64,000 bases of DNA from Marivivens sp. LCG002 (GTDB lineage Bacteria; Pseudomonadota; Alphaproteobacteria; Rhodobacterales; Rhodobacteraceae): the NCBI RefSeq assembly GCF_030264275.1, contig NZ_CP127165.1, forward strand, positions 1,724,001-1,788,000. The letters are read 5' to 3'. The notes below the pieces were generated by a model. It saw only the letters and a program-made list of their open reading frames with translations, searched no databases and was not told the DNA's origin. Position numbers and translations under genes: made by a program. Below, piece after piece: positions 35,669 through 49,705 of the stretch (the stretch's first letter is position 1; each line of letters opens with the position of its first letter).

Positions 35669-35806
35669 CCGCTCGCTTAGGGCCGGACAAGCACGATGAT
35701 CGCTTCGCATCAATGAGGACGGCCGCCTAGCCGCACGTCCGCTTCGCACCGTTTCAAGAGATGGTGTCGTGGTTCCGGAACCAACTAGTGGCCCGGAACC
35801 ACCTCA

Positions 35807-36598
35807 TTAGATCGTCAGACCGCAAGCCTTCCGAATGGCGATCTGGACAGGCGAAGGCGGAAGCTTGGGGTCAAACTCCATGCTTGGCATCAGCGGTGGT
35901 TGAGCCATGAAGCGAGGCTCGGTCCCATGGTGCGGCTGCGCTGAATGAACCAAGAACGGATGGCACAGGTAGACCGTCCCTGCCGCTCCGGTCGCGAGAG
36001 CGATCTCGCAGTCTTTTGTCGACGCGTAGCCCTCGGCCGAGAGTTCCCTGAGCGTCGCACCTGCCTTGCCATAAGGTAAAAGTTCACGGGCAATGGTGGC
36101 GTGCGAGCCCTTGCGTATCAGCGTTGGGGCATCGTCAGGTCCGACATCCGATAAAAGGAAAAGCATCAGCAGCGCCCTTCCGCTGCTTAAAACATTTGCG
36201 CGCCATTCCATGAAGTCAGGATTCTCGGTGCCGAAGCTTACGTCGATATGCCAACCCTCATCTCCTGCGCTCTTGCTCGATGGAAAGCGGATCGGGAAAG
36301 TTCCGAGCCCTTGAGGGGCCAGCCATAGGCCTTCCCCAACAAGAGTGTTATAGGCCGCATGCAAGCGCGGCGTATTCGCAGCAGCCACGAAAGATGGCGA
36401 TGACTTCCAACCGATGCGAACGACCGGTTCGGTCCATGTCTCGGGCCGGTCTTGGGCGAGACCCAAATCGGCCCACAATTCGTTTCGGCAATCTTGGGCA
36501 AGGTCACTGCTGAAGGCATTATCTATCTTAATAAAGCCGTCGTTTATGAAGGTTTCGACCTGAAGCGGGGTCAGGGCAATGTCTTGGGCAATGGACAT
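35807..36598 (-). CDS. Phytanoyl-CoA dioxygenase (PhyH) family oxygenase
   Basis: 263 residues; AGGAGG 8 bases upstream of the ATG. Fe(II)/2-oxoglutarate-dependent oxygenase fold: iron ligands His and Asp in WHIDVSFG at about residues 116-119 and the second His in HPFLVHSAQPHHGTEPRF, with the arginine of EPRF binding 2-oxoglutarate. Substrate unknown; family members hydroxylate lipids, compatible solutes such as ectoine, and antibiotics. It stands alone on the minus strand. Confidence 0.85.
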   Translation of the reverse strand: MSIAQDIALTPLQVETFINDGFIKIDNAFSSDLAQDCRNELWADLGLAQDRPETWTEPVVRIGWKSSPSFVAAANTPRLHAAYNTLVGEGLWLAPQGLGTFPIRFPSSKSAGDEGWHIDVSFGTENPDFMEWRANVLSSGRALLMLFLLSDVGPDDAPTLIRKGSHATIARELLPYGKAGATLRELSAEGYASTKDCEIALATGAAGTVYLCHPFLVHSAQPHHGTEPRFMAQPPLMPSMEFDPKLPPSPVQIAIRKACGLTI

Positions 36599-37084
36599 TT
36601 CACGTCCTCCTTAGCGGCAGTCGCTCTGCGACGCCGTCACTATTCAAAAGGCGCCGGAGCGCATGCGACGAGGATCGCTCAGAAGAGGGGAAAGAAAATC
36701 GACATAAACATCATAGGAGATTGGCTATTATCGCCGTTCGAATAAGTCAATGACAACGCTTCTGCTACAGGAACGATACCACATCCGATTGGGTTGCTAC
36801 ATTGCCGAACCTAGCGCCTGTTTCCTGCGCTCGTCAGAGCTTCTCCACTCGCAAACGCTGATAGATGCAGGAATGGCCGGCCTTAAGAAGCCGAATAGAA
36901 CCTAGGAGTTAGACATAAAGGCAGCTTTGGGCCAGTCGATACCTCCCAGCATGCGAGGGCCCAAGGCGCAATATTGCGTCTTGAGGGTAGTCAGGTGGCA
37001 CACCATGGCGCCACATGACATCTCCGAACCAAACGTGCTTGATGTTGCGGCGCAACCGAATGTCGGCCATCGCGCCACATAGTC
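36599..37084. other. Intergenic region
   Basis: 486 bases between two minus-strand genes. It holds the PhyH ribosome site at its left edge and presumably its promoter. No other gene, repeat or hairpin stood out. Confidence 0.4.
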
Positions 37085-37441
37085 TTAGATACGGGTCTTT
37101 GGCGCAGCTTCGCGATCTGAATCACCCGAATTGGGTTCTCCCTTTGGTTCAATCAGAAGAACCTTCACCTCGGATTCCGCCCTCGGTCGATGAACCACGC
37201 CTTTGGGCACAATGAACAATTCACCCGCCTTGACCGTGCGCGAAGGCTCCCCTTCGATATCCATTTGCATCTCACCTTCCAGAACGTAGAAAAAGTCATC
37301 GGTGTTGTCGTGTTTGTGGAATGGATACTCACCTTTGAGCTTTACAACCATGACCTCGTTTTCATTGTAGTCAGCGACAACACGCGGATCCCAATGCGTA
37401 GAAAATTGTGAAAGTTTCTCTGAGAGATTTATTGATTTCAT
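37085..37441 (-). CDS. Single-domain cupin protein
   Basis: 118 residues with both cupin motifs: FHKHDNTDDFFYVLEGEMQMDIEG (motif 1, H-x-H...E) and FIVPKGVVHRP (motif 2, His). Metal would bind His/His/Glu/His. Small cupins of this type stand near AraC regulators and may be isomerases, dioxygenases or ligand-binding proteins; no substrate can be assigned. Divergent from the AraC-type gene, with their ends almost touching, so they probably share a control region. Confidence 0.85.
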   Translation of the reverse strand: MKSINLSEKLSQFSTHWDPRVVADYNENEVMVVKLKGEYPFHKHDNTDDFFYVLEGEMQMDIEGEPSRTVKAGELFIVPKGVVHRPRAESEVKVLLIEPKGEPNSGDSDREAAPKTRI

Positions 37442-37456
37442 TGACGATTTCCTTCT

Positions 37457-38383
37457 TTGTGCTGTTCCAATCTACTTTCGAAGCCGTTGGAGGGACTTCC
37501 CATCCATAACAAACAACGATCCAAGGAGATAAAACCACAAGACCTAACACCGGGTCTTGAACGATCGTGCGCGACTGATTGGGTCAAGACCGCGCCATGG
37601 CAAACTGGCATTCAAAGGATCGAGGCTTATTTCTCTGGCGAAGCCTACGCCCCTCATCGCCATGATACCTATTCGATTGGCTACACAATCAAAGGTGTCC
37701 AAAGCTTTAACTATCGCGGTGCGCGTATCGACAGCGTCGCTGGGCAAGTGATTGTTCTTCATCCCGACGAAATTCATACTGGCGAGGCTGGGACAGAAGC
37801 TGGTTTTCACTATCGAATGCTCTATGTCGAACCTTCTTTGGTGCGTGACGCCCTAGGGGAGAGCGCAAGCGCACTTCCGTTTTTGCATGACGCGGTTCTA
37901 ACCGATCCGCTTTTGATGAGAGCAATCCATGCCGCGTTTACGGTTATGGACAGGTCTCTTGAAGCAGTCGCGATGGATGAACTGACAGTATTGTTGGCGG
38001 ATGGGTTGCTTGCAAATGATACATCCGCTCGTCGAACTACCCGGTCTTTGATCGATTACAAAGCAATCCGACGTGCCAAAGACTACTTGGAGAGCAACCT
38101 CAGCGAGACTGTTCCCTCGGACGAGCTTGAAAAAATCACTGGCTTGGACAGGTATGCGCTGTCGCGCCAGTTTCGAAAGGCCTTTGGCACAAGTCCGTAT
38201 CGGTATCTGACGATGCGCCGACTGGATCAGGCCCGTGGAGACATTGCAGCTGGAGTCCCCCTTATCAAAGCGGCGCTGCGTGCAGGATTTTCCGATCAGG
38301 CACATATGACACGGCAATTCAAAGCAGCTTTTGGGATTTCACCAGGACAGTGGCGACAATTGGTTCAAAAAACCAATCATTGA
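37457..38383 (+). CDS. AraC-family regulator with cupin sensor domain
   Basis: Up to 308 residues. The longest frame starts at TTG 37457, only 15 bases from the divergent cupin gene; no ATG lies near and the true start is probably some 20-40 codons later. N-terminal AraC ligand domain (YFSGEAYAPHRHDTYSIGYTIKGVQSFNYRG, VIVLHPDEIHTGEAG) and C-terminal double HTH (AIRRAKDYLESNLSETVPSDELEKITGLDRYALSRQFRKAFGTSPYRYLTMRRLDQA, AALRAGFSDQAHMTRQFKAAFGISPGQWR). Likely activator of the adjacent cupin gene. Confidence 0.9.
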   Translation: MCCSNLLSKPLEGLPIHNKQRSKEIKPQDLTPGLERSCATDWVKTAPWQTGIQRIEAYFSGEAYAPHRHDTYSIGYTIKGVQSFNYRGARIDSVAGQVIVLHPDEIHTGEAGTEAGFHYRMLYVEPSLVRDALGESASALPFLHDAVLTDPLLMRAIHAAFTVMDRSLEAVAMDELTVLLADGLLANDTSARRTTRSLIDYKAIRRAKDYLESNLSETVPSDELEKITGLDRYALSRQFRKAFGTSPYRYLTMRRLDQARGDIAAGVPLIKAALRAGFSDQAHMTRQFKAAFGISPGQWRQLVQKTNH

Positions 38384-38743
38384 CCGAAGTCGACCTTCCT
38401 TTGATCTTAACTTAGGCCCGCTGCGCCCCCCCAACGGCATTCCGACTAGGGTTTTTCCCGTCGAGACTGTTTGATCAGGCTCTAGAGCTCGCCCTGACAC
38501 TGAACCATATCGATTTTCTTAGACCAGTCCGTGACATAGCCATCGGTAAAAGCGAGAAACTCATCTACTCGCCGAAGGAAACACCCGACACGCGCTTGGT
38601 TCAGGATGTCTAGGAAGGCAGGGGCTTGGAAAAGGGCCCTCTCGGCGGCACTTATTTCCTCAAGCGCATGCCACCATGCAAGAGCCTAGCGCCAGAGTTA
38701 TTCCACACGGCTTGAAGTTCTGTCGTCGGTCCCAGCCACAATT
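38384..38743. other. Intergenic region with a possible gene remnant
   Basis: 360 bases. On the minus strand 38482-38680 reads open with a protein-like sequence (HALEEISAAERALFQAPAFLD, QARVGCFLRRVDEFLAF, GYVTDWSKKIDMVQ) ending in TAG, but lacks a start codon and ribosome site. It looks like the C-terminus of a lost gene that I cannot identify. Confidence 0.35.
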
Positions 38744-38780
38744 TGACATTGCACTTGTCAAAATGACATGTATAATGTCA
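38744..38780. promoter_or_regulatory. Two tandem MarR-type operators over the promoter
   Basis: TGACA-n7-TGTCA occurs twice, at 38744-38760 and 38764-38780, centres 20 bp apart. The second box covers TATAAT at 38771-38776; TTGCAC 16 bases upstream gives the -35. With ATG at 38783 the message would be nearly leaderless. Confidence 0.7.
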
Positions 38781-38782
38781 AT

Positions 38783-39229
38783 ATGAAAGCAGAACAACTA
38801 CACCAACTGATTTGGATGTCGCGCCCTTTGATGCAAGCCGCCGAAAGCTGCGTCGAAGCGGGTCTGGCTGGAACCAACCTTACAGTGCGTATGCGCGCTG
38901 TTCTGGAGATATTGGACAAATACGGAGATCAGACCGTGCCGGAACTTGCGGCAAGGCTCGAAATCCAAAGGCAATACGTTCAAATCATGTGCAACGAAAC
39001 GCTGGCTTCAGGTTTCATTGAGCAACGCCCCAATCCGCGCCACAAGCGTTCACCCATCATAGCGTTGACCGATCAAGGCCGCACACTGATCGAAGACATC
39101 CTTTCCAAAGAGATGCAGATCATGGAGCAGATGAGTGAAGACCTGAGCGAAGAAAATATTACCACCGCACTCAATGTTGTCCTTGCTGTGGTGGAAAGTT
39201 TGAAAAAACGGGCCGGAGAGCGAACATGA
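38783..39229 (+). CDS. MarR-family regulator
   Basis: 148 residues from ATG 38783; an ATG at 38768 lies inside the -10 box and is unlikely. Winged helix in the middle: TVRMRAVLEILDKYGDQTVPELAARLEIQRQYVQIMCNETLASGFIEQRPNPRHKRSPIIALTDQG, the MarR pattern with the D-x-R-type wing. The two TGACA-n7-TGTCA boxes upstream indicate self-repression. Overlaps the isochorismatase-like gene by 4 bp, so it controls it directly. Confidence 0.9.
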   Translation: MKAEQLHQLIWMSRPLMQAAESCVEAGLAGTNLTVRMRAVLEILDKYGDQTVPELAARLEIQRQYVQIMCNETLASGFIEQRPNPRHKRSPIIALTDQGRTLIEDILSKEMQIMEQMSEDLSEENITTALNVVLAVVESLKKRAGERT

Positions 39230-39846
39230 CATTTGGGTTGAGTATTGGCGCAGGGGCCCTTCTCCTCATTTTATGGCTAGGTGACGGCATACGCCGCATT
39301 GGTGCCGTCAGTGCCGGAAAACCTATAGGGGCACGTGATGGATCTGCCCTCTTACTCATTGATCTTCAGTCAGTATTCTGGGAACGCGGCCCCTATTCGG
39401 AGGCTTCCAAGCAATCTGCTGCAGCCATCATTCATTCGGAGGTCGCAGCGGCTCGGGCGCAGAACCAACCCGTCATCGCAGTCCGACAGGAATGGTCGAT
39501 CCCTTCAACAAAAGTTCTGGCAAAGCTCACGATGAAAGGACAGGCGATAGAAGGCAGTGAAGGGACTGAACTTGCTGGTCTATTCTCATCATATCCTGAT
39601 TACGTCATCGTAAAGCGCGTGCAGGATTCATTCGAAACCGGCGAGCTTGATGCTCTTTTGGAGCGCCTTAACGTCGGCCAGCTGCGTCTCGTTGGTCTGG
39701 ACCTAAACTATTGTGTGCAAAAGACGGCACTCGCTGCCAAGAAGAGAGGCTATGACGTCACCGTCGTAAAGCACGGAACTCTCGCAGCAGGACCTGCGGA
39801 CGTTGCGGAAATGCGGATGTCGTCAGCCGGTGTCGCCATTTCATAA
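39226..39846 (+). CDS. Membrane-anchored isochorismatase-like hydrolase
   Basis: 206 residues. An N-terminal helix (FGLSIGAGALLLILWLG) precedes a cysteine-hydrolase domain: ALLLIDLQSVFWERGPYSE (catalytic Asp), PVIAVRQEWSIPSTK, and LVGLDLNYCVQKTALAAKKRGYDVTVV (nucleophilic Cys). Family members hydrolyse isochorismate, nicotinamide or related amides; the specific substrate is not evident. The N-terminal anchor is unusual for this soluble family. Second gene after MarR, with ATGA overlap. Confidence 0.85.
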   Translation: MTFGLSIGAGALLLILWLGDGIRRIGAVSAGKPIGARDGSALLLIDLQSVFWERGPYSEASKQSAAAIIHSEVAAARAQNQPVIAVRQEWSIPSTKVLAKLTMKGQAIEGSEGTELAGLFSSYPDYVIVKRVQDSFETGELDALLERLNVGQLRLVGLDLNYCVQKTALAAKKRGYDVTVVKHGTLAAGPADVAEMRMSSAGVAIS

Positions 39847-40380: not shown

Positions 40381-40780
40381 GCTGAGAAGCGTGATTGGCA
40401 TCATGGACCATGATCTAGTGAGCGCTCCAAGTGGCCATAAGGCGACGCGTTGCATCAGTCGCTCTGCGGTCGCAGCAACGCTGAGGGTATCGGGTCACCC
40501 CAGCCAATTGCGATCGCCTTCCTTGCTAGGTTTCAGCTGCACTCGAGCCGCAAATCTTTCATCGCGCAACAATTTTGAAGTGTTGAAGTTTCTCGGCGCG
40601 TAACAAAACCAACCGACAATAGAGCAAAACATGCGGCGGCTTTCATCTAACGACACGTTGCTGCGTTATTCGATCACCAAAGAGCGTATGGCAACTTTGG
40701 GCGGGAAGCGGCCTGCCGCACTGCGGCAAGGCTAATCAGGGTATGGCTGCGGAAGCAGTTCTTCAGGCAACACACAGCGG
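40381..40780. other. Intergenic region
   Basis: 400 bases after the GNAT gene with no believable gene. It leads into the IS30 relic and, further right, the promoter region of the Gabija-like pair. Confidence 0.4.
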
Positions 40781-40789
40781 GAAAATGGG

Positions 40790-40958
40790 GGCTCACGATC
40801 TAGGTCGGGCGATAACGGTTGCGGTAGAGTTCGCGGAAGATTGTCGAGCGGGGGTGGCCAAGGCGCGCCGCGGTCTCAGTCGCCGGGACCTTTGCTTCGC
40901 GTCAGCGCGCGATTTTGCGTCGTTCTTTGGGGTCGAGATGCGGGTAGGAATTGGACAT
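40790..40958 (-). pseudogene. IS30-family transposase N-terminal fragment
   Basis: Read on the minus strand from ATG 40958: SNSYPHLDPKERRKIAR, then TGA at 40904, then in other frames LGHPRSTIFRELYRNRYRP. This is the conserved N-terminal HTH of IS30 transposases. The rest of the gene and the inverted repeats were not found. A relic of a mobile element 135 bases upstream of the defence genes. Confidence 0.6.
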
Positions 40959-41092
40959 GGAGAATGCATCGTCGATGCCATGCACTAATTTTACTTCAAC
41001 GTCACAGTTCCAACTTGAATCCCTTACGCAACTTAAGCGATAGTCAGTTATCGAAAATTTAACTTTGCATAATCGAGCAGGATCAAAATTAA

Positions 41093-43435
41093 ATGCATCT
41101 TCACTCTCTGGCGTTTAAGAATTTTCGGAGATTGAAAGATGCTCGCGTCGAGTTTGCGAATGACCTAACCATATTTGTTGGAGCCAACAACAGCGGAAAA
41201 ACGTCTGCGACACACGCTGTGGACCTGTTTTTGTCCGGCTCTAAGGAAAAGTTCACTGTCAATGATTTCAGCGCAGATTGCTGGCCAGCCTTTGAAAATT
41301 TCCCGGCGGAAGATGCGACTGAGCAAGCCTTCGAATTCCCGGCCATAACTCTTGATGTGTGGATCAGCGTTGACCCGGACAATCTTTACCGGGTCGTAGA
41401 TCTCCTACCCCGAGCTGCATGGGAAGGTGCGCTCGTCGGTGTCCGGATTCAGTTTGACGTGAAGGACGCCGCCCAAACGCTTGCCAGCTACCGGAAGATG
41501 GCGACCGAGGCTGCGAAGTTCGCCCAGATTAAGGCTGAGCATGGCGCAGACTACAAACCTTGGCCCCGAAACATGCGCGACTACCTCGCGCGCGAGTTGA
41601 AGAATGAATATGGCCTGCGATATTTCATTCTCGACGCAGCGTCGCTCGACCCCGCCAACGCTGGCCAGACGTACACGCCTAAAGAGATCCTAGCAGACGC
41701 TGAGCGAACGGGACACTCCGTCATCAATTCGCTGATCAAGGTGGATTTCTTAAGCGCTCAGCGACACTTGAGCGACGGTAACGCACAAGCTCGAACCGAG
41801 GATTTATCCAAGCGGCTCAGCCGTTTCTACGCTCGCAACCAAAGCAAGCGCGAAGAAGACCACAACGCTCTGCGCGCGTTGGCGATCTCTGAAAATCAGC
41901 TGACGAAGCATTTTTCGGACGTGTTCAAGGACACGTTTAAATCGCTGCGCAAGCTCGGTTATCCTGGCCTTTCCAACCCTTCCCTAGAGATCCGCGCCGC
42001 CCTGCGGCTGGAACGCCTGATGAGCGATCAGCAGGCCAAGGTTCACTACCTGCTTGAAGAGGCGTCCAATGGCGCAGAAGCCCTGTCTCTCCCCGACAGC
42101 TATAACGGGTTGGGTTTTAAAAACCTCATCTACATGGGCGTCGAGCTCCTCGATCTCCATGCTGCGTGGTCGGTAACGGAGGAAGGTGAGGAAGAAAAGC
42201 GCCAGCCAATCCACCTGATGTTTATCGAGGAACCGGAGGCGCATATGCATGCGCAACTCCAGCAGGCCTTCATTCGCAAGCTTACCGAACTCATCCCGCC
42301 CGCAGGGGCGGACGGTTACGCCACGCAGTTCGTGATCACGACGCATTCCCCGCACATACTGTACGAGCGGGGCTTCAAGCCGATCCGCTATTTCCGGCGT
42401 TCGGCCGAAATAGGCTCCAAGCAAAACTCCTCTGTTTTCAACCTCTCAGCCTTCTACGAGTGCAACAAGGACGACCGGGACTTCCTCCAGCGATATATGA
42501 AGCTAACGCATTGCGACCTATTCTTCGCTGACGGCGCAATCCTTGTTGAGGGCAACGTCGAGCGTCTCGTGCTTCCGTTGATGATCGCTCACGGCGCAGA
42601 GAAGCTGAATGCGGCCTACCTCAGCATTCTTGAGGTAGGCGGTGCTTTCGCATTTCGTTTCCAGAAGCTGATTGAGTTTCTAGGGTTGCCGACCCTGATC
42701 GTGACGGACCTCGACAGCGTGTACCCGCCCAAGCCTAAGAAGGCTGCTGACGCTGCTCCGGAGGCCAACGAGGACGCCTCTGCCCAGGGCGACAGCGACG
42801 CTGTTGAAGACGAAGAGGAGGACGATGATCTCGACGATGAGGTTGCGGCTGAAGGGGACGAGCCGAAGCCAAGCTCAAAATGCCCTGCCGGAACGGCAGG
42901 AGCCGTGACGGCAAACCAGACCCTGCGCCAATGGCTCCCCGGCAAGATACTGATTGAAGACCTTCTGGCCGCCACGCCTGAAAGCAAGCTGCAGGCGCCG
43001 CACAATGGCTCGGGTGCACATGTGATGGTAACATATCAGTGCCCTGTAACCGTGACTTGGGGAATGGAATCGGCTGAGCTGAAGAGCCGAACCCTCGAAG
43101 AGGCATTCGCCTACGAAAACCTTGAGTGGTGCCAGAAGAAGGAGCACCATGATTTGAAGCTGAGATGGAGCAAGGCGGGCACGATGCAGCTGGCCGATCT
43201 CGCTTCGAGGATCCATACGCGCGTCAAAGGCCAGCATTTCAAGAAAACCAACTTCGCCTTGGGCCTTCTTGCTAGCAGCGACACGTCGTGGGTCGTTCCT
43301 ACTTACATCCAGCAGGGCTTGGACTGGTTGACGCAGCACGTCGCAATCGCAGAAGAGGAGACGGACGCACCGGCTGAAGTCGCCGGTGCCGACGAAGTTC
43401 CTGTGCAACCTAAAGACTTGCAGGCGGGTCAATGA
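41093..43435 (+). CDS. Gabija GajA-like class 2 OLD-family nuclease
   Basis: 780 residues. ABC-type ATPase with Walker A VGANNSGKTSA (about 29-39), Walker B/signature region LMFIEEPEAHMHAQLQ (about 375) and VITTHSPHILY (about 414), followed by a TOPRIM domain: FFADGAILVEGNVERLV (catalytic Glu, about 484) and LPTLIVTDLDSV (Asp-x-Asp, about 536). A strongly acidic insert (about 557-592) follows, then a C-terminal part with no motif I know. OLD proteins paired with a UvrD helicase are class 2 OLD, the core of the Gabija anti-phage system; Gabija GajA is about 580 residues, so this one is extended. Overlaps the helicase gene by 4 bp. Confidence 0.85.
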   Translation: MHLHSLAFKNFRRLKDARVEFANDLTIFVGANNSGKTSATHAVDLFLSGSKEKFTVNDFSADCWPAFENFPAEDATEQAFEFPAITLDVWISVDPDNLYRVVDLLPRAAWEGALVGVRIQFDVKDAAQTLASYRKMATEAAKFAQIKAEHGADYKPWPRNMRDYLARELKNEYGLRYFILDAASLDPANAGQTYTPKEILADAERTGHSVINSLIKVDFLSAQRHLSDGNAQARTEDLSKRLSRFYARNQSKREEDHNALRALAISENQLTKHFSDVFKDTFKSLRKLGYPGLSNPSLEIRAALRLERLMSDQQAKVHYLLEEASNGAEALSLPDSYNGLGFKNLIYMGVELLDLHAAWSVTEEGEEEKRQPIHLMFIEEPEAHMHAQLQQAFIRKLTELIPPAGADGYATQFVITTHSPHILYERGFKPIRYFRRSAEIGSKQNSSVFNLSAFYECNKDDRDFLQRYMKLTHCDLFFADGAILVEGNVERLVLPLMIAHGAEKLNAAYLSILEVGGAFAFRFQKLIEFLGLPTLIVTDLDSVYPPKPKKAADAAPEANEDASAQGDSDAVEDEEEDDDLDDEVAAEGDEPKPSSKCPAGTAGAVTANQTLRQWLPGKILIEDLLAATPESKLQAPHNGSGAHVMVTYQCPVTVTWGMESAELKSRTLEEAFAYENLEWCQKKEHHDLKLRWSKAGTMQLADLASRIHTRVKGQHFKKTNFALGLLASSDTSWVVPTYIQQGLDWLTQHVAIAEEETDAPAEVAGADEVPVQPKDLQAGQ

Positions 43436-45321
43436 ACAGCCGTGCAGGAAAGCCGGATACGCCGGCTGATATCGAACTAAGAGCCTTGCTAGACGATGAC
43501 GCGTCTACCGGGTTCGTGATGGTTTCAGGTGCAGGGTCGGGAAAAACGACCTCGATCGTCAAAGCGCTCGATCATCTTCTCAAAACACGAGGGCGCGCTC
43601 TGCGAGCGCAGTCAAAAAAGATCGCCTGCATTACTTACACAGACGTCGCGGTCGGCGAGATTTGGGGTGATGTAGGCAACAACCCGTTGTTCCACGTGTC
43701 CACGATCCACAGCTTCCTCTGGGCGGCCGTGAAGCCGTTTCAGAGCGACATTACAAGCTGGGTTGGGCGCCGGCTCGACAGGAGAATCACAGACACTGAA
43801 ACTGAGATTGCAGGCTTCACTAACAGGACGCGGGCACCAACGCGCGAACGTAAACATGCCGACCTAGAGCGATATCGAGCCCAAAAGCTCACGATCGGTG
43901 ATGTGAAGCGCTTCACCTACGGTGTCGGGAGCGACTACCCGAAGGGCATTCTGGGGCACGACGACGTTATCAAGCTTTCAACCGAGCTTATCCGCGACCT
44001 GCCGGTTATCGCCAAGGTCATTGGGCAGAAGTACCCGTTCATCTTTGTTGACGAGAGTCAGGACACCGATCCGGATGTCGTTGCGGCACTCAAGGGGATC
44101 TCAGCCTTGCTAGGTAATAAGTTCTGCCTCGGGTTCATCGGTGATCCGATGCAAAAAATCTACATGTCCGGTGCCGGCGTCATTACTCCTCTCGACGGTT
44201 GGAAGTCTATCGAGAAGCCTGAAAATTTTCGCTGTCCCGTCGCTGTCCTCAATGTGATCAACCAGATCCGCACGGGCGATGACGGTCTTGTTCAAACCGG
44301 CGGCAAAACGAAAGAGGCCGGAGGAGTACGCGTTCCGATCCACGGATCTGCGAAGCTGCTCGTGGTGTCTAAGGACGACCGCACCCAGAGCCTTGCCGAT
44401 GCGCGACAGTGGCTTGCCCATCACAACAACGACGCCCTTTGGCTCAGTGATGACGATGACGCTGACGTAAAAGTCTTGGTGATTGCCCACCGGATAGCAG
44501 CCAACCGCCTTGGCTTCGGCTCCCTTTACGAAGCCTTCCACGACAAAACGTCTGACGGCCTCAAAGACGGTTTCGATGATGGCACACATTGGTCAGTCAT
44601 CCCTTTTTTGAAGCTGCTGGCCCCTTTGATGCTGGCCAATGCCGATGACGATCAATTTGAGGTTATGAGACTTCTGCGTCGCCAGGCGCCTTTTTTGCAG
44701 CGCGAGTACATGCAGGCGAACGCTGTGCCTGGCATTTTGAAAGATATGGACACTCGGGTGAAGGCCCTCGCGCAGATCTGCGGTGAGGCTTCAGCAACTC
44801 CTGTATTCGCTGCGTTCGAGCACCTGCGGGACGGAGGCATGTTTAAGTTGGATGATCGTATCCTCGCGGCAATGGCCGAATACGATGCTGAGGCTCCATC
44901 TGCCGAGAGCGGCGACTATGCCGCCTTAGTGAAACTCCTTCACACGCCGATCCGGCAACTATGGGGCTATCGTCGCTACATCGAGGAGCAGTCGCCGTTC
45001 GATACGCATCAGGGGGTAAAGGGTGCGGAGTTCAGCCGAGTTCTCGCGATCCTCGATGACGAAGAGGGTCGCCATAACCAGTTCAATTACGGAAAGTATT
45101 TTGGCATAACGCCTCTCTCCGACACGGATGAGCAGAACATCCGAGACGGCAAGGAAACGACGATTATGCGCACCCGTCGCCTTCTCTATGTTTGCTGTTC
45201 AAGAGCCGGCGAGGGTCTGGGTGTCGTGTTTTTTGCGGATGATCCTGCGCAAGCTCATGCCGCCATCGTAGCGTCGGGTATCTTCCCCTCTCAGGACGTG
45301 ATCAATCTAGCCGCGTCCTAG
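43432..45321 (+). CDS. Gabija GajB-like UvrD/Rep-family helicase
   Basis: 629 residues. Superfamily 1 helicase motifs: Walker A SGAGSGKTTS (about 32-41), Ia-like ACITYTDVAVGEIWG, TIHSFLW, Walker B FIFVDESQDTDP (about 204), motif III FIGDPMQKIY, IV ENFRCPVAVLNVINQIR, V THQGVKGAEFSRVLAI and VI RRLLYVCCSRAGEGL. All look intact. In Gabija, GajB senses DNA ends and works with the GajA nuclease; GajB is about 494 residues, so this is longer. ATGA overlap with the GajA-like gene fixes the two as one unit. Alternative: a DNA-repair pair unrelated to phage defence. Confidence 0.85.
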   Translation: MNSRAGKPDTPADIELRALLDDDASTGFVMVSGAGSGKTTSIVKALDHLLKTRGRALRAQSKKIACITYTDVAVGEIWGDVGNNPLFHVSTIHSFLWAAVKPFQSDITSWVGRRLDRRITDTETEIAGFTNRTRAPTRERKHADLERYRAQKLTIGDVKRFTYGVGSDYPKGILGHDDVIKLSTELIRDLPVIAKVIGQKYPFIFVDESQDTDPDVVAALKGISALLGNKFCLGFIGDPMQKIYMSGAGVITPLDGWKSIEKPENFRCPVAVLNVINQIRTGDDGLVQTGGKTKEAGGVRVPIHGSAKLLVVSKDDRTQSLADARQWLAHHNNDALWLSDDDDADVKVLVIAHRIAANRLGFGSLYEAFHDKTSDGLKDGFDDGTHWSVIPFLKLLAPLMLANADDDQFEVMRLLRRQAPFLQREYMQANAVPGILKDMDTRVKALAQICGEASATPVFAAFEHLRDGGMFKLDDRILAAMAEYDAEAPSAESGDYAALVKLLHTPIRQLWGYRRYIEEQSPFDTHQGVKGAEFSRVLAILDDEEGRHNQFNYGKYFGITPLSDTDEQNIRDGKETTIMRTRRLLYVCCSRAGEGLGVVFFADDPAQAHAAIVASGIFPSQDVINLAAS

Positions 45322-45594
45322 TCGACTATACGCCTGCCATACGGTCAGAAGGCGGATCGCTTTTGTGACCTAAGGCTGCTTAGGTAACCTGGCACAAGCC
45401 TGATCAGGGAATCCCCACCTTCCCGATGATGATCTGAATTCAGCAATGTAGAGGGGCACCTGACGATACGGTGGCTTGTCGGCATCGCTGTGATCTCGCC
45501 GAGGATTTCGCCGCGGTACGACTGAGAGACCGCTTCGACGCATGTTGCCCTGCGGCATTTGCCGCCGGCGAGCGGCAGCTATGGGCCGAGAGCC

Positions 45595-46356
45595 CTAACG
45601 ACGTGCCATGATGACATACCGGTGTTCACTCCGGCGCATCAACGATTTCCGCCACCCCAACTGTCGTGCCTGTGCGCGGTGAACTGCGGACAGGCGGCTG
45701 TCGATCCGGACGTCTGAGAAGCCCGCTTGGCGCAACAGGTCCGCTACTGCTTCGGCGCGTGCGCCATTGGCGAAGTAGACTTGGGACAGGATCTCTTGAT
45801 GCCAGTTTCGCGCTTGCGCATGATCGGGGTTTACGGGACCCAGAACGCGGCTCAGCACTCGAGCAAACAGGCTTTTGCTGACGAAATCCCCATCAACGAT
45901 CAGCAGAATTCCATTAGGCGCAAGCAACCTGCGCCATTCCTTGAACGCCGCCAGCGGGTCTACCAGCGTCCAGACGAGATGGCGCGTGACGATTACGTCC
46001 TGCAACCCCGAAGGGGCGGGGATGATCTCGGCATCGGCTTGGAGAAAAGTAATGTCTGCGCCCGCGGCCTTTGCCTTGGCCCTTGCGCGTGCCAGCATCG
46101 GTTCGGCCCAGTCCAGCCCTGTAACGCGAAACCCCATGTCATGGCAAAGCATCGCAATCTCACCTGTCCCAGAGGCAAGATCAAGCAAACGCCGCCCGCG
46201 TGCGTCGCCTAAGTGCTTGAGAAATAAAGACATCCATGCCCGACGCTCATCTCCGTCCGCGATTTTATGCCCCGGGTCGTTGTCAAAGGTTTCCGCGCGC
46301 GCCGACCAATAGTCGCGGATTTCGTCGCGGATATCGCGGTTTTTGATCTGATTCAT
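45595..46356 (-). CDS. Class I SAM-dependent methyltransferase
   Basis: 253 residues from ATG 46356 (GGAG 8 bases upstream); the frame to 46485 crosses the divergent promoter. Methyltransferase motif I LLDLASGTGEIAMLCHDMGFRVTGLDWAEPML, motif II-like DVIVTRHLVWTLVDPLAAFKEWRRLLAPNGILLIVDGD. Ubiquinone/menaquinone-methylase-like fold (UbiE/COQ5 type). Substrate unknown. It is divergent from the iron-chelate ABC operon; in other bacteria similar methyltransferases lie with cobalamin, heme or siderophore transport genes. Confidence 0.85.
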   Translation of the reverse strand: MNQIKNRDIRDEIRDYWSARAETFDNDPGHKIADGDERRAWMSLFLKHLGDARGRRLLDLASGTGEIAMLCHDMGFRVTGLDWAEPMLARARAKAKAAGADITFLQADAEIIPAPSGLQDVIVTRHLVWTLVDPLAAFKEWRRLLAPNGILLIVDGDFVSKSLFARVLSRVLGPVNPDHAQARNWHQEILSQVYFANGARAEAVADLLRQAGFSDVRIDSRLSAVHRAQARQLGWRKSLMRRSEHRYVIMARR

Positions 46357-46406
46357 GGCGTTCTCCAATTTGGGCACAGGCTCTAGTCGCTTATTCCGAC
46401 TAAAAA

Positions 46407-46427
46407 AGTCAAGAATTAATCTTGACT
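46407..46427. promoter_or_regulatory. Palindrome AGTCAAGA-n5-TCTTGACT
   Basis: Perfect 8-bp arms around ATTAA, extended by A/T runs on both sides, in the 121-bp region between the methyltransferase and the ABC importer genes. It contains TTGACT-type -35 sequences on both strands. It does not match the Fur, Irr or RirA boxes I know. Confidence 0.65.
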
Positions 46428-46477
46428 CTTTTTGTATGGTTTGTTGAAAACGCTCCAAATCAACCAACGAGGACAAA

Positions 46478-47599
46478 ATGAACACCTTCTTGAAACCGCT
46501 TTACCTTGGCGCAATGACCATAATCGCCCTGCCCGCCTTCGCCGAAACAGTCACCATCACCGATGTCGCAGGCCGCGAAGTGCAAATCGAAACGCCGGTC
46601 CAGCGCGTAATCCTGGGCGAAGGCCGCCAGTCATTCTTTACTGCCGTTCTGGAAGCGGAAAATCCGTTCCAGCGTGTTGTTGGCTGGCGCGACGATTTCA
46701 TCAAAGCTGATCCCGACAGCTTTGCCGCCTATGCAGAAAAGTTCCCGCAAATCAAAGATCTGCCCGCATTCGGTGGTTTCAAAGAGGGCACCTTTGACAT
46801 CGAACAGGCCGTGTCGCTGAACCCGGACGTGATGATCCTTAACCTCGAATCCAAGGCCGCGACCGACGAAGCAGGTTACGAGGAGAAACTTGCCGCCGTC
46901 GGTATTCCAATCGTCTATGTGGACTTCCGCGAAGATCCCTTTGCCCACACAACTCAGTCAATGGAAATCATCGGTGCGCTCTATGGTGAAGAAGAGCGTG
47001 CCGCTGAATTCAACGCCTTTTTCAACGAGCAGGTCGCGCGTGTCACAGACGTAATTGCGGCACAGCCAGATCTGGCGCGCCCTTTAGTTTTCGTTGAACG
47101 CGCGGGCGGCTATGCAGAGGATTGCTGCATGTCCTTTGGCAATGCGAACTTCGGCGAGATGGTCGAGATCGCCGGCGGCACCAACATGGCAACTCCGTTC
47201 ATTCCTGGCACTTTCGGCACGGTGAACGCAGAACAGATCATCGCCTCGAACCCCGATATCGTCGTCGTAACTGGCGGCAACTGGGAAGCCTATGTTCCTG
47301 GCGGTGCATGGGTTGGTGTCGCGCCGGGTGCTGATATGGACGCAGCCCGCGCCAAGCTGGCCGCGCTGACAGATCGTCCGGCCTTTACCGGCATCAAAGC
47401 CGTCGAAACCGGCAACGTCCACGCAATCTGGCACCAGTTCTACAACAACCCCTACAGCTTTGTTGCCGTGCAGCGGCTGGCCAAGTGGATCCACCCCGAG
47501 CTGTTTGCCGATCTGGACCCCGAAGCGACCCTGCGCGAACTGCACGACCGCTTCCTACCGGTGCCATATCGCGAAGGCTACTGGGTTTCTTTGAACTAA
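46478..47599 (+). CDS. Periplasmic binding protein of an iron-chelate/vitamin B12-type ABC importer
   Basis: 373 residues. Sec signal peptide (NTFLKPLYLGAMTIIALPAFAE). BtuF/FepB-type helical-backbone binding protein: TVTITDVAGREVQIETPVQRVIL, LNPDVMILNLESKA, PIVYVDFREDPFAHTTQSMEIIGALYG, GGTNMA..., EQIIASNPDIVVVTGGNWE, and VHAIWHQFYNNPYSFVAVQRLAKWIHPEL near the end. Ligand could be a siderophore, heme or cobamide. First of three importer genes (binding protein, permease, ATPase). Confidence 0.92.
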   Translation: MNTFLKPLYLGAMTIIALPAFAETVTITDVAGREVQIETPVQRVILGEGRQSFFTAVLEAENPFQRVVGWRDDFIKADPDSFAAYAEKFPQIKDLPAFGGFKEGTFDIEQAVSLNPDVMILNLESKAATDEAGYEEKLAAVGIPIVYVDFREDPFAHTTQSMEIIGALYGEEERAAEFNAFFNEQVARVTDVIAAQPDLARPLVFVERAGGYAEDCCMSFGNANFGEMVEIAGGTNMATPFIPGTFGTVNAEQIIASNPDIVVVTGGNWEAYVPGGAWVGVAPGADMDAARAKLAALTDRPAFTGIKAVETGNVHAIWHQFYNNPYSFVAVQRLAKWIHPELFADLDPEATLRELHDRFLPVPYREGYWVSLN

Positions 47600-47645
47600 A
47601 ACGGTGCGGGGCGCTTTGCGCCCTGCCTTGCCCACAGGGGGTGTC

Positions 47646-48707
47646 ATGACCGATCTAACCGCAACAGTGCCCGCCACGGGCTTTTCCTACCGCAAACTGG
47701 TGGCTCGACGGACTATCGTGCTGTCCATCCTGTGCGCAGCGCTGCTCTTGTCCGTTGCGATTGACGTATCGATTGGACCAGCGCGCTATCCGCTGGCTGA
47801 CGTCATCCGAACACTCATGTTCCCGTCACAGGCCGATATACAGATCCGCGTCGTCATTTGGGATATCCGCATGCCGATGGCGCTGCTGGCGGTCACTGTC
47901 GGAGCATGTTTGTCGCTTGCCGGAGCGCAGATGCAGACCATTCTGGCGAACCCCCTTGCCAGCCCCTTCACACTGGGACTATCCGCCGCTGCCAGTTTTG
48001 GCGCGGCGGTAGCGATGGTGCTGGGCGTCGCACTTGTTCCGGCAGCGCTTTCCATCATGGTCCCGATCAATGCCTTCGCCATGGCGATGCTCGCAGCGCT
48101 ATCGATTTTCGTCCTGTCCAGCATGCGCGGCGTCACGGTCGAAACCATCGTGCTTCTGGGTATCGCTCTGGTGTTCACCTTCAATGCAGCGCTCGCATTA
48201 CTGCAATACTTTGCTTCCGAGCAAACACTTGCGGCCGTCGTATTCTGGACGATGGGCAGTCTGACCAAAGCAACTTGGGGCAAGGTCGCAGCAACCGCAT
48301 GCATTCTGCTGATCTGCACCCCTCTCTTCGCCCGACGTGCCTGGTCGCTCACGGCAATCCGGCTGGGCGAGACCCGCGCAGCGGCCATGGGCGTGCCCGT
48401 CCGCCGCATCCGGCTGGAAACGCTATTACTTGTCTCGCTGCTCGCAGCCGTTCCTGTATCCTTTGTTGGCACCATCGGATTTATTGGCATTGTAGGCCCT
48501 CACATCGCGCGGCTTTTGTTAGGCGAAGATCAACGGTTCTTTCTGCCAGGCTCCATCCTATCGGGCGCGCTGATCTTATCGGCGACGTCAGTGCTCTCCA
48601 AAGCCATCCTGCCCGGCGCAGTGCTGCCCATCGGAATTATTACGGCATTGGTCGGCGTGCCCTTCTTTGCCACCCTCATCCTGACCCAAGGACGCCGCTC
48701 ATGGTAA
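47646..48707 (+). CDS. FecCD-type permease
   Basis: 353 residues from ATG 47646 (GGGGG upstream); an earlier GTG-type start at 47604 is less likely. About nine to ten membrane helices and the FecCD motifs: GACLSLAGAQMQTILANPLASPFTLGLSAAASFGAAVA near residue 95, and RLGETRAAAMGVPVRRIRLETLLL, the coupling loop to the ATPase, then GFIGIVGPHIARLLLGEDQRFFLPGS. Forms the homodimeric channel for the chelate. The ATPase gene begins inside its last codons. Confidence 0.92.
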   Translation: MTDLTATVPATGFSYRKLVARRTIVLSILCAALLLSVAIDVSIGPARYPLADVIRTLMFPSQADIQIRVVIWDIRMPMALLAVTVGACLSLAGAQMQTILANPLASPFTLGLSAAASFGAAVAMVLGVALVPAALSIMVPINAFAMAMLAALSIFVLSSMRGVTVETIVLLGIALVFTFNAALALLQYFASEQTLAAVVFWTMGSLTKATWGKVAATACILLICTPLFARRAWSLTAIRLGETRAAAMGVPVRRIRLETLLLVSLLAAVPVSFVGTIGFIGIVGPHIARLLLGEDQRFFLPGSILSGALILSATSVLSKAILPGAVLPIGIITALVGVPFFATLILTQGRRSW

Positions 48708-49459
48708 CGCTTGCTCTTAAGGACGTCGAAGCCCGCTATGGATCAAAAGTTATCTATGCCCGCGCGAATATGCCCGTGATACGGGGCGGCGCCCTCACTG
48801 CGCTGGTCGGCCCAAATGCCGCTGGCAAATCAACCTTGTTCCGAAGGATCGCAGGACAACTGCGCGGCAGAGGAAGCGTTCAGATCGAAGGCGCAAAACA
48901 GCGAGACCTGCGATATATGCCGCAGGAGACCGGAATGGACGCAGCGCTCACCGTATATGAAAGTATCATCCTCTCGCTAAAACAGGGCACAGGAGGTTGG
49001 AGCCTTTCCGCCGCCGAATTGCTTGCTGTTGACGAAGTGCTGACCCGTTTACGGATTGCCGACCTTGCCAGCAAGAGCTTAACCGACCTGTCTGGCGGTC
49101 AACGGCAACTGGTGTCGATCGCGCAAACGCTTGTGACGCGACCAAAGGTGCTCTTGATGGACGAACCGACCTCGGCACTTGATCTATTCCGCCAGCACGA
49201 GGTTCTGGCCAGGCTGCGCGACTACGTGACCGAGACTAGCGCAGTCGCCATACTCGCGCTGCACGATCTGAACCAAGTGATGCGTTGCTGCACGCAGACC
49301 GTCGCCGTGGCAGACGGAGACATCATCGCGTCCGGCCAAACGCTTGAGGTGCTGACACCCGTCCTGATCCGCCGCCTTTATGGGGTGAACGCACGGATAG
49401 AAGCCTGCTCGCGCGGCTGCCCGATGATGATCGTGGACGGCGCTGCCATGGTTAACTGA
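48701..49459 (+). CDS. ATP-binding protein of the iron-chelate-type importer
   Basis: 252 residues from ATG 48701, overlapping the permease stop by 7 bp; the frame is open far upstream (to 47858), but that part is the permease in another frame. Walker A GPNAAGKSTLFRRI (about 36-44), signature LSGGQRQLVSIA, Walker B VLLMDEPTSALDL, H-loop ALHDLNQVMR, as in FepC/BtuD ATPases. The C-terminal tail VNARIEACSRGCPMMIV has two cysteines. Confidence 0.92.
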   Translation: MVTLALKDVEARYGSKVIYARANMPVIRGGALTALVGPNAAGKSTLFRRIAGQLRGRGSVQIEGAKQRDLRYMPQETGMDAALTVYESIILSLKQGTGGWSLSAAELLAVDEVLTRLRIADLASKSLTDLSGGQRQLVSIAQTLVTRPKVLLMDEPTSALDLFRQHEVLARLRDYVTETSAVAILALHDLNQVMRCCTQTVAVADGDIIASGQTLEVLTPVLIRRLYGVNARIEACSRGCPMMIVDGAAMVN

Positions 49460-49705
49460 CCAACTAAGGGCTGCGCTGAGGATGGTGATGCATCGCAAGC
49501 GAGAAATGAAAGCCGTGCGCGTCGTGCGATAACCAAACCCGCACCAGTTGGCGTAACACAAGGCTCGAAAACTCTAGCTTCGGGTGGTCCAGAGTGGGTA
49601 GGCATAGCACAGAAAGAACCCCTCTATTTCCACTTGCGTTGGAATTGGCAGCACGATTAACTTCAATCAATCTTGAAGTTTTGAATATTTTTTCAGGAAC
49701 ACTGG

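Follow-up and report, generated by a model that had tools for sequence, protein, structure and literature searches.

The gene pair at 41093-45321 of the window (the whole 64,000-nucleotide stretch of Marivivens sp. LCG002 DNA analyzed here) very probably constitutes a functional Gabija anti-phage system, as judged from its sequence, and its nuclease GajA belongs to a clade in which the segment following the catalytic DxD motif is a long acidic loop. The pair and its main landmarks are:

41093..43435, + strand: gajA, 780 aa, class 2 OLD nuclease (ABC ATPase and TOPRIM)
43432..45321, + strand: gajB, 629 aa, UvrD/Rep-like SF1A helicase
~41079-41083: AGGA, ribosome-binding-like, just 5' of the gajA start
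42707..42715, + strand: TOPRIM DxD (D539, D541), invariant columns in a 47-sequence alignment

Both proteins matched the PADLOC Gabija models over nearly their entire length, with GajA residues 1-760 aligned to positions 1-743 of 752 in PDLC00095 (E 1.1e-277) and GajB residues 1-626 to positions 1-630 of 632 in PDLC00143 (E 1.4e-232). Pfam, PADLOC and fold matches agree on an N-terminal ABC ATPase (AAA_15/ABC ATPase PF13175, E 1.8e-45) and a C-terminal OLD-like TOPRIM (PF20469, E 5.9e-17) in GajA, and the adjoining downstream gene encodes a UvrD-type helicase (PF00580, E 2e-16) with intact SF1A motifs (GAGSGKT, DESQD, GDPMQ, NFR, THQGVKG and YVCCSRA). The overlap of 4 bp between nuclease and helicase noted in the first-pass annotation is present as an ATGA common to both frames, and the adjacency of gajA and gajB, often with overlap, is common to nearly all sampled relatives. 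What had been described as a Gabija-like pair is thus, by the full-length PADLOC models, a member of Gabija itself, a stronger statement than the original one. Judged by these matches, the branch is already captured by the PADLOC detection models, the other members of its clade matching PDLC00095 equally well. PARIS is defined by an AriA-type ATPase and an AriB nuclease encoded as a separate gene; this identity was rejected for the Marivivens pair, as the AriA model covers the ATPase half only (residues 1-423, E 2e-55), and GajA itself contains a complete TOPRIM, with a helicase as its partner.

The catalytic set of the GajA TOPRIM is complete (E486, E490, G517, D539, D541, T667, E669, K718): E486, E490, G517, D539, D541, E669 and K718 are among the invariant columns of the 47-sequence alignment, and T667 is found at the expected spacing. 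On the basis of their order and spacing in the sequence, and not of a structural superposition, E486, E490, D539, D541, T667, E669 and K718 correspond to E400, E404, D455, D457, T506, E508 and K562 of the B. pseudomallei OLD nuclease, and the set corresponds to E379, E383, D432, D434 and K541 of GajA from B. cereus VD045, the metal ligands and catalytic lysine having been described for both proteins (PMC6755086, PMC10822852). When the AlphaFold2 model of GajA (mean pLDDT 79) was searched against PDB folds, the VD045 GajA structures ranked first, with matches including 8u7i/8sm3/8x5i; for the GajB model (mean pLDDT 91), UvrD and Rep came first and VD045 GajB stood at rank 45. In VD045 the two proteins form a complex of 4:4 stoichiometry.

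Protein size had originally been taken as a mark of an extended system. Both Marivivens proteins are indeed larger than those of VD045, but that yardstick is a short family member, and size was rejected as a subtype mark: across sampled Alphaproteobacteria, Actinomycetota, Bacteroidota, Bacillota and others, relatives mostly have a GajA of 640-800 aa and a GajB of 530-710 aa. Short GajA proteins (~600 aa) form a distant group, and the Marivivens lengths are unremarkable within this half of the family.

The surroundings of the pair bear on its origin and role, and include the following:

41034..45323, + strand: transferred module, 89% DNA identity to Aliihoeflea aestuarii (L009) by blastn
~40818-40949, - strand: remnant of an IS30-type transposase (HTH_38), decayed and interrupted by an in-frame stop, PF13936 E 2.2e-9

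The match between Marivivens and Aliihoeflea consists of the pair plus 59 bp upstream, with no similarity on either side, and by this comparison gajAB is a two-gene module acquired horizontally. Only one of seven sampled congeners has the pair, that one being Marivivens sp. LCG002 itself; in the congener comparison, upstream homology ends at ~39880 with unrelated DNA beyond, and the block on the downstream side begins at 45583. The HTH_38 fragment bears out the earlier report of an IS30 relic just upstream, and the fragment and the patchwork flanks are compatible with several rounds of insertion and decay here. Elsewhere, clade members are found on plasmids (in Sphingobium, Rhizobium, Sinorhizobium, Shinella, Methylobacterium, Haematobacter, Serratia symbiotica and Klebsiella), and several adjoin a Shedu nuclease, a retron-type reverse transcriptase or ArdA. 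A search for carriage by phages returned distant matches only, in 6 phage records and one viral contig.

These data also weigh on whether the pair is a DNA repair or other housekeeping module instead of a phage defence, which we consider improbable. The fold of GajB is closest to the UvrD/Rep repair helicases, and the archaeal OLD-family ATPase Cran1 has a non-defence function (PMC12796447); however, patchy presence, flank-free transfer, plasmid carriage and defence-type neighbors in some relatives all argue against a repair role, as do the top matches of the pair, which are to full-length Gabija models. The contrast initially drawn with “DNA-repair OLD/UvrD pairs” had to be dropped, since a class 2 OLD nuclease with a UvrD partner is the very class to which GajA has been assigned (PMC10781630; PMC6755086). 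A decayed, non-functional remnant seems very unlikely as well. The IS30 fragment with its stop lies ~144 bp 5' of gajA, and a scan of 40600-45700 for one consensus type found no sigma-70-like promoter match, but both frames are intact and the catalytic residues are kept, and the ratio of non-synonymous to synonymous changes (dN/dS) relative to Aliihoeflea is 0.08 in the GajA ATPase, 0.06 in the TOPRIM core and 0.115 in GajB. Such values in the folded parts (0.06-0.12) indicate purifying selection, gajA and gajB both being maintained.

Several further loci are of note. On the Haematobacter plasmid (L130 2815-4392), a type XI RT-protease gene (PADLOC E 1e-185) stands immediately 5' of the Gabija pair. 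Two genes 5' of the Aliihoeflea pair (L009 3826-6299), following two unmatched ones, weakly match ZorA (E 7e-4) and ZorB (E 1e-6), and it is possible that they represent a Zorya-like system of divergent sequence or another membrane system of the motor type. Some clade members appear to be disrupted (L129 3001-5309, L131 3001-7291 and CP052287 115101-118596, the last being a second Klebsiella copy that lies across an IS3 transposase); gajA of the Klebsiella plasmid CP052288 is split into two frames, and the pair of Sinorhizobium GR4 seems truncated. Within the window, 45583-49464 holds a methyltransferase and a siderophore-type uptake cassette (periplasmic binding protein, permease, ATPase), of which the same genome carries a second copy with ~85% identity on contig 2 (C2 ~160-164 kb), the DNA common to both copies beginning just 3' of gajB. 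The region 35771-39837 is likewise duplicated in part in this genome, second copies of 35771-36714 (86%) and of the MarR/isochorismatase genes at 38744-39837 (74%) adjoining each other at C1 ~1995-1997 kb.

Two acidic segments of GajA stand out from this otherwise ordinary Gabija protein:

42716..42916, + strand: acidic loop, GajA residues 542-608 (67 aa), net charge -15, clade-specific by sequence comparison
43331..43432, + strand: acidic C-terminal tail, GajA residues 747-780, net charge -7, by sequence comparison

The loop, which the first-pass annotation had correctly picked out as an acidic insert, sits directly after D539/D541 and before a conserved “TxNxTL” block. A C-terminal extension, also proposed there, exists, but comprises just the ~34 aa acidic tail that follows the end of the conserved core near residue 746. 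Residues 556-589 of the loop and 755-780 of the tail are predicted to be disordered, with pLDDT values below 50 in the AlphaFold2 model. When the bases of the loop DNA were shuffled, the net charge was +6.8 +/- 4.3 and 0 of 2000 shuffles reached the observed -15, so the acidity of the loop is not a chance product of base composition. The same procedure in eleven members gave means of +4 to +7, and the observed charge was never or almost never reached. Tandem repeats, as a possible origin of the loop, were not found in window positions 42600-43500.

The loop between DxD and “TxNxTL” varies in length in all GajA examined. It is 35-78 aa long with a net charge of -7 to -23 in every member of the acidic clade (22/22), all of which also have an acidic C-terminal tail (net -5 to -17); in other GajA (n = 55), the loop measures 11-45 aa and its net charge is -3 to +6. 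The 22 acidic-loop members were monophyletic (SH-aLRT 96) in a tree from which loop and tail columns were left out, which is consistent with a single gain, hence the 22 are not independent observations. A fresh, independent draw of genomes yielded three proteins (L138, L139 and L141) that show 48% identity and whose loops are short and either neutral or basic; together with a fourth protein they form the sister group of the acidic clade, with loops of 22-35 aa. An identity of at least 45% was therefore rejected as the boundary of the acidic group. Taken together, these sequence comparisons make the acidic loop a feature of the whole clade and not of the Marivivens gene alone. The suggested Gabija subtype stands as a monophyletic subclade marked by the acidic insert, its “extended” size not being distinguishing, and “subtype” is valid just as a phylogenetic and sequence-feature statement. 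No description of this variant was found in the open-access papers searched.

Evolutionarily, the loop and tail behave unlike the folded parts, with dN/dS of ~1.4 and 0.9, respectively, between Marivivens and Aliihoeflea (from few changes). That the loop sequence drifts while its acidity stays is consistent with what one would expect if the segment is disordered and its overall charge matters, although a linker that arose once and changes slowly in composition could give a similar pattern. As to a partner for the loop, the TOPRIM core of the clade has a net charge of -3.9 vs. -6.4 to -11.1 in other groups; it is still net negative, so that the sequence gives no sign of a strongly basic surface as a partner, and a specific docking site is unlikely because the loop sequence is unconserved. 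Compensating basic charge in GajB was considered and rejected, the GajB of the clade being more acidic (-13.9 vs. -6.8), and no clade-specific GajB insert was found beyond an 8-residue stretch around residues 293-300.

The position of the loop is functionally important in the characterized system. In VD045 GajA, a flexible lysine-rich loop (residues 436-442) directly after D432/D434 sets cleavage specificity; with alanine in place of its five lysines, the otherwise sequence-specific nuclease cuts non-specifically (PMC10822852). GajA of Ligilactobacillus salivarius (LsGajA) naturally cleaves non-specifically (PMC13304284), thus cleavage specificity already varies within the Gabija family. Other Gabija members work through a nucleotide-inhibited nuclease and a GajA-GajB complex, and phage proteins displacing RecBCD from DNA ends license Gabija attack in Pseudomonas (PMC13304284, PMC10781630, PMC12407980).

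Transposed to the Marivivens system, the mechanism established for other members would make GajA a Mg-dependent DNA nuclease that normal nucleotide levels hold off from cutting via the ABC domain, that assembles with the helicase GajB, and that phage infection frees to cut DNA. The disordered acidic loop beside the TOPRIM metal site and the acidic tail might then serve as an electrostatic gate or weakly mimic DNA, lowering DNA binding at rest and drawing cleavage away from the kind of site specificity that the lysine loop confers on B. cereus GajA, in which case cutting in the acidic clade would depend more on GajB or on DNA ends. We offer such a gate on DNA access, with altered specificity, only tentatively and by analogy, since the VD045 lysine loop at the same place sets specificity and the charge in the clade is the opposite.

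Alternatively, loop and tail could be disordered linkers without function that expanded neutrally, a single time, in the clade ancestor, the system being plain Gabija, an explanation to which we give somewhat less than an even chance. The loop is predicted disordered, its length (35-78 aa) and sequence drift freely at a dN/dS near 1, sister members do without an acidic version, and variable-length loops of 19-46 aa are common at this site. Neutrality fits less well with a net charge of -7 or below in 22/22 members, against about +4 to +7 for random DNA of the same composition, or with a tail that is likewise acidic in all 22 (one origin, so not independent).

Were the electrostatic gate correct, the clade could be a distinct Gabija branch whose specificity loop has been replaced by a charge-inverted, intrinsically disordered acidic gate that, together with the acidic tail, mimics DNA, a proposal that we regard as possible but doubtful. 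The gate would shut the nuclease until GajB or a DNA end displaces the loop, which would amount to a self/non-self control unlike the lysine-loop site specificity of B. cereus. How Gabija discriminates between phage and host DNA is debated: the B. cereus system nicks at specific sequences, that of L. salivarius cuts without specificity, and in Pseudomonas the attack is RecBCD-licensed. A clade with a charge-inverted specificity loop is a ready-made natural experiment on this question. A phage test of any acidic-clade member was not found in the open-access literature.

Compared with known systems, the Marivivens pair resembles B. cereus VD045 Gabija (GajA 578 aa, GajB 494 aa; PDB 8sm3, 8jqb) in gene order, domains and active-site residues, and differs from it in that GajA is ~200 and GajB ~135 residues longer, that identity in the fold alignment is ~16%, and that the loop after DxD is long and acidic, whereas that of VD045 is short and lysine-rich. 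The Marivivens GajB model is also nearer to full UvrD/Rep helicases than to VD045 GajB. Against the long Gabija proteins represented by PADLOC PDLC00095 and PDLC00143, the match is near full-length and no difference was found. The class 2 OLD nucleases of B. pseudomallei and X. campestris (PDB 6nk8, 6njv) have the residues of the TOPRIM two-metal site in common with Marivivens GajA; these proteins are ~595 aa long and lack an insert as long as that of GajA, although the X. campestris structure has a short disordered segment (residues 458-463) right after the DxD region (PMC6755086). The pair is thus a known system, Gabija, with a clade-wide acidic loop variant at a functionally important position.
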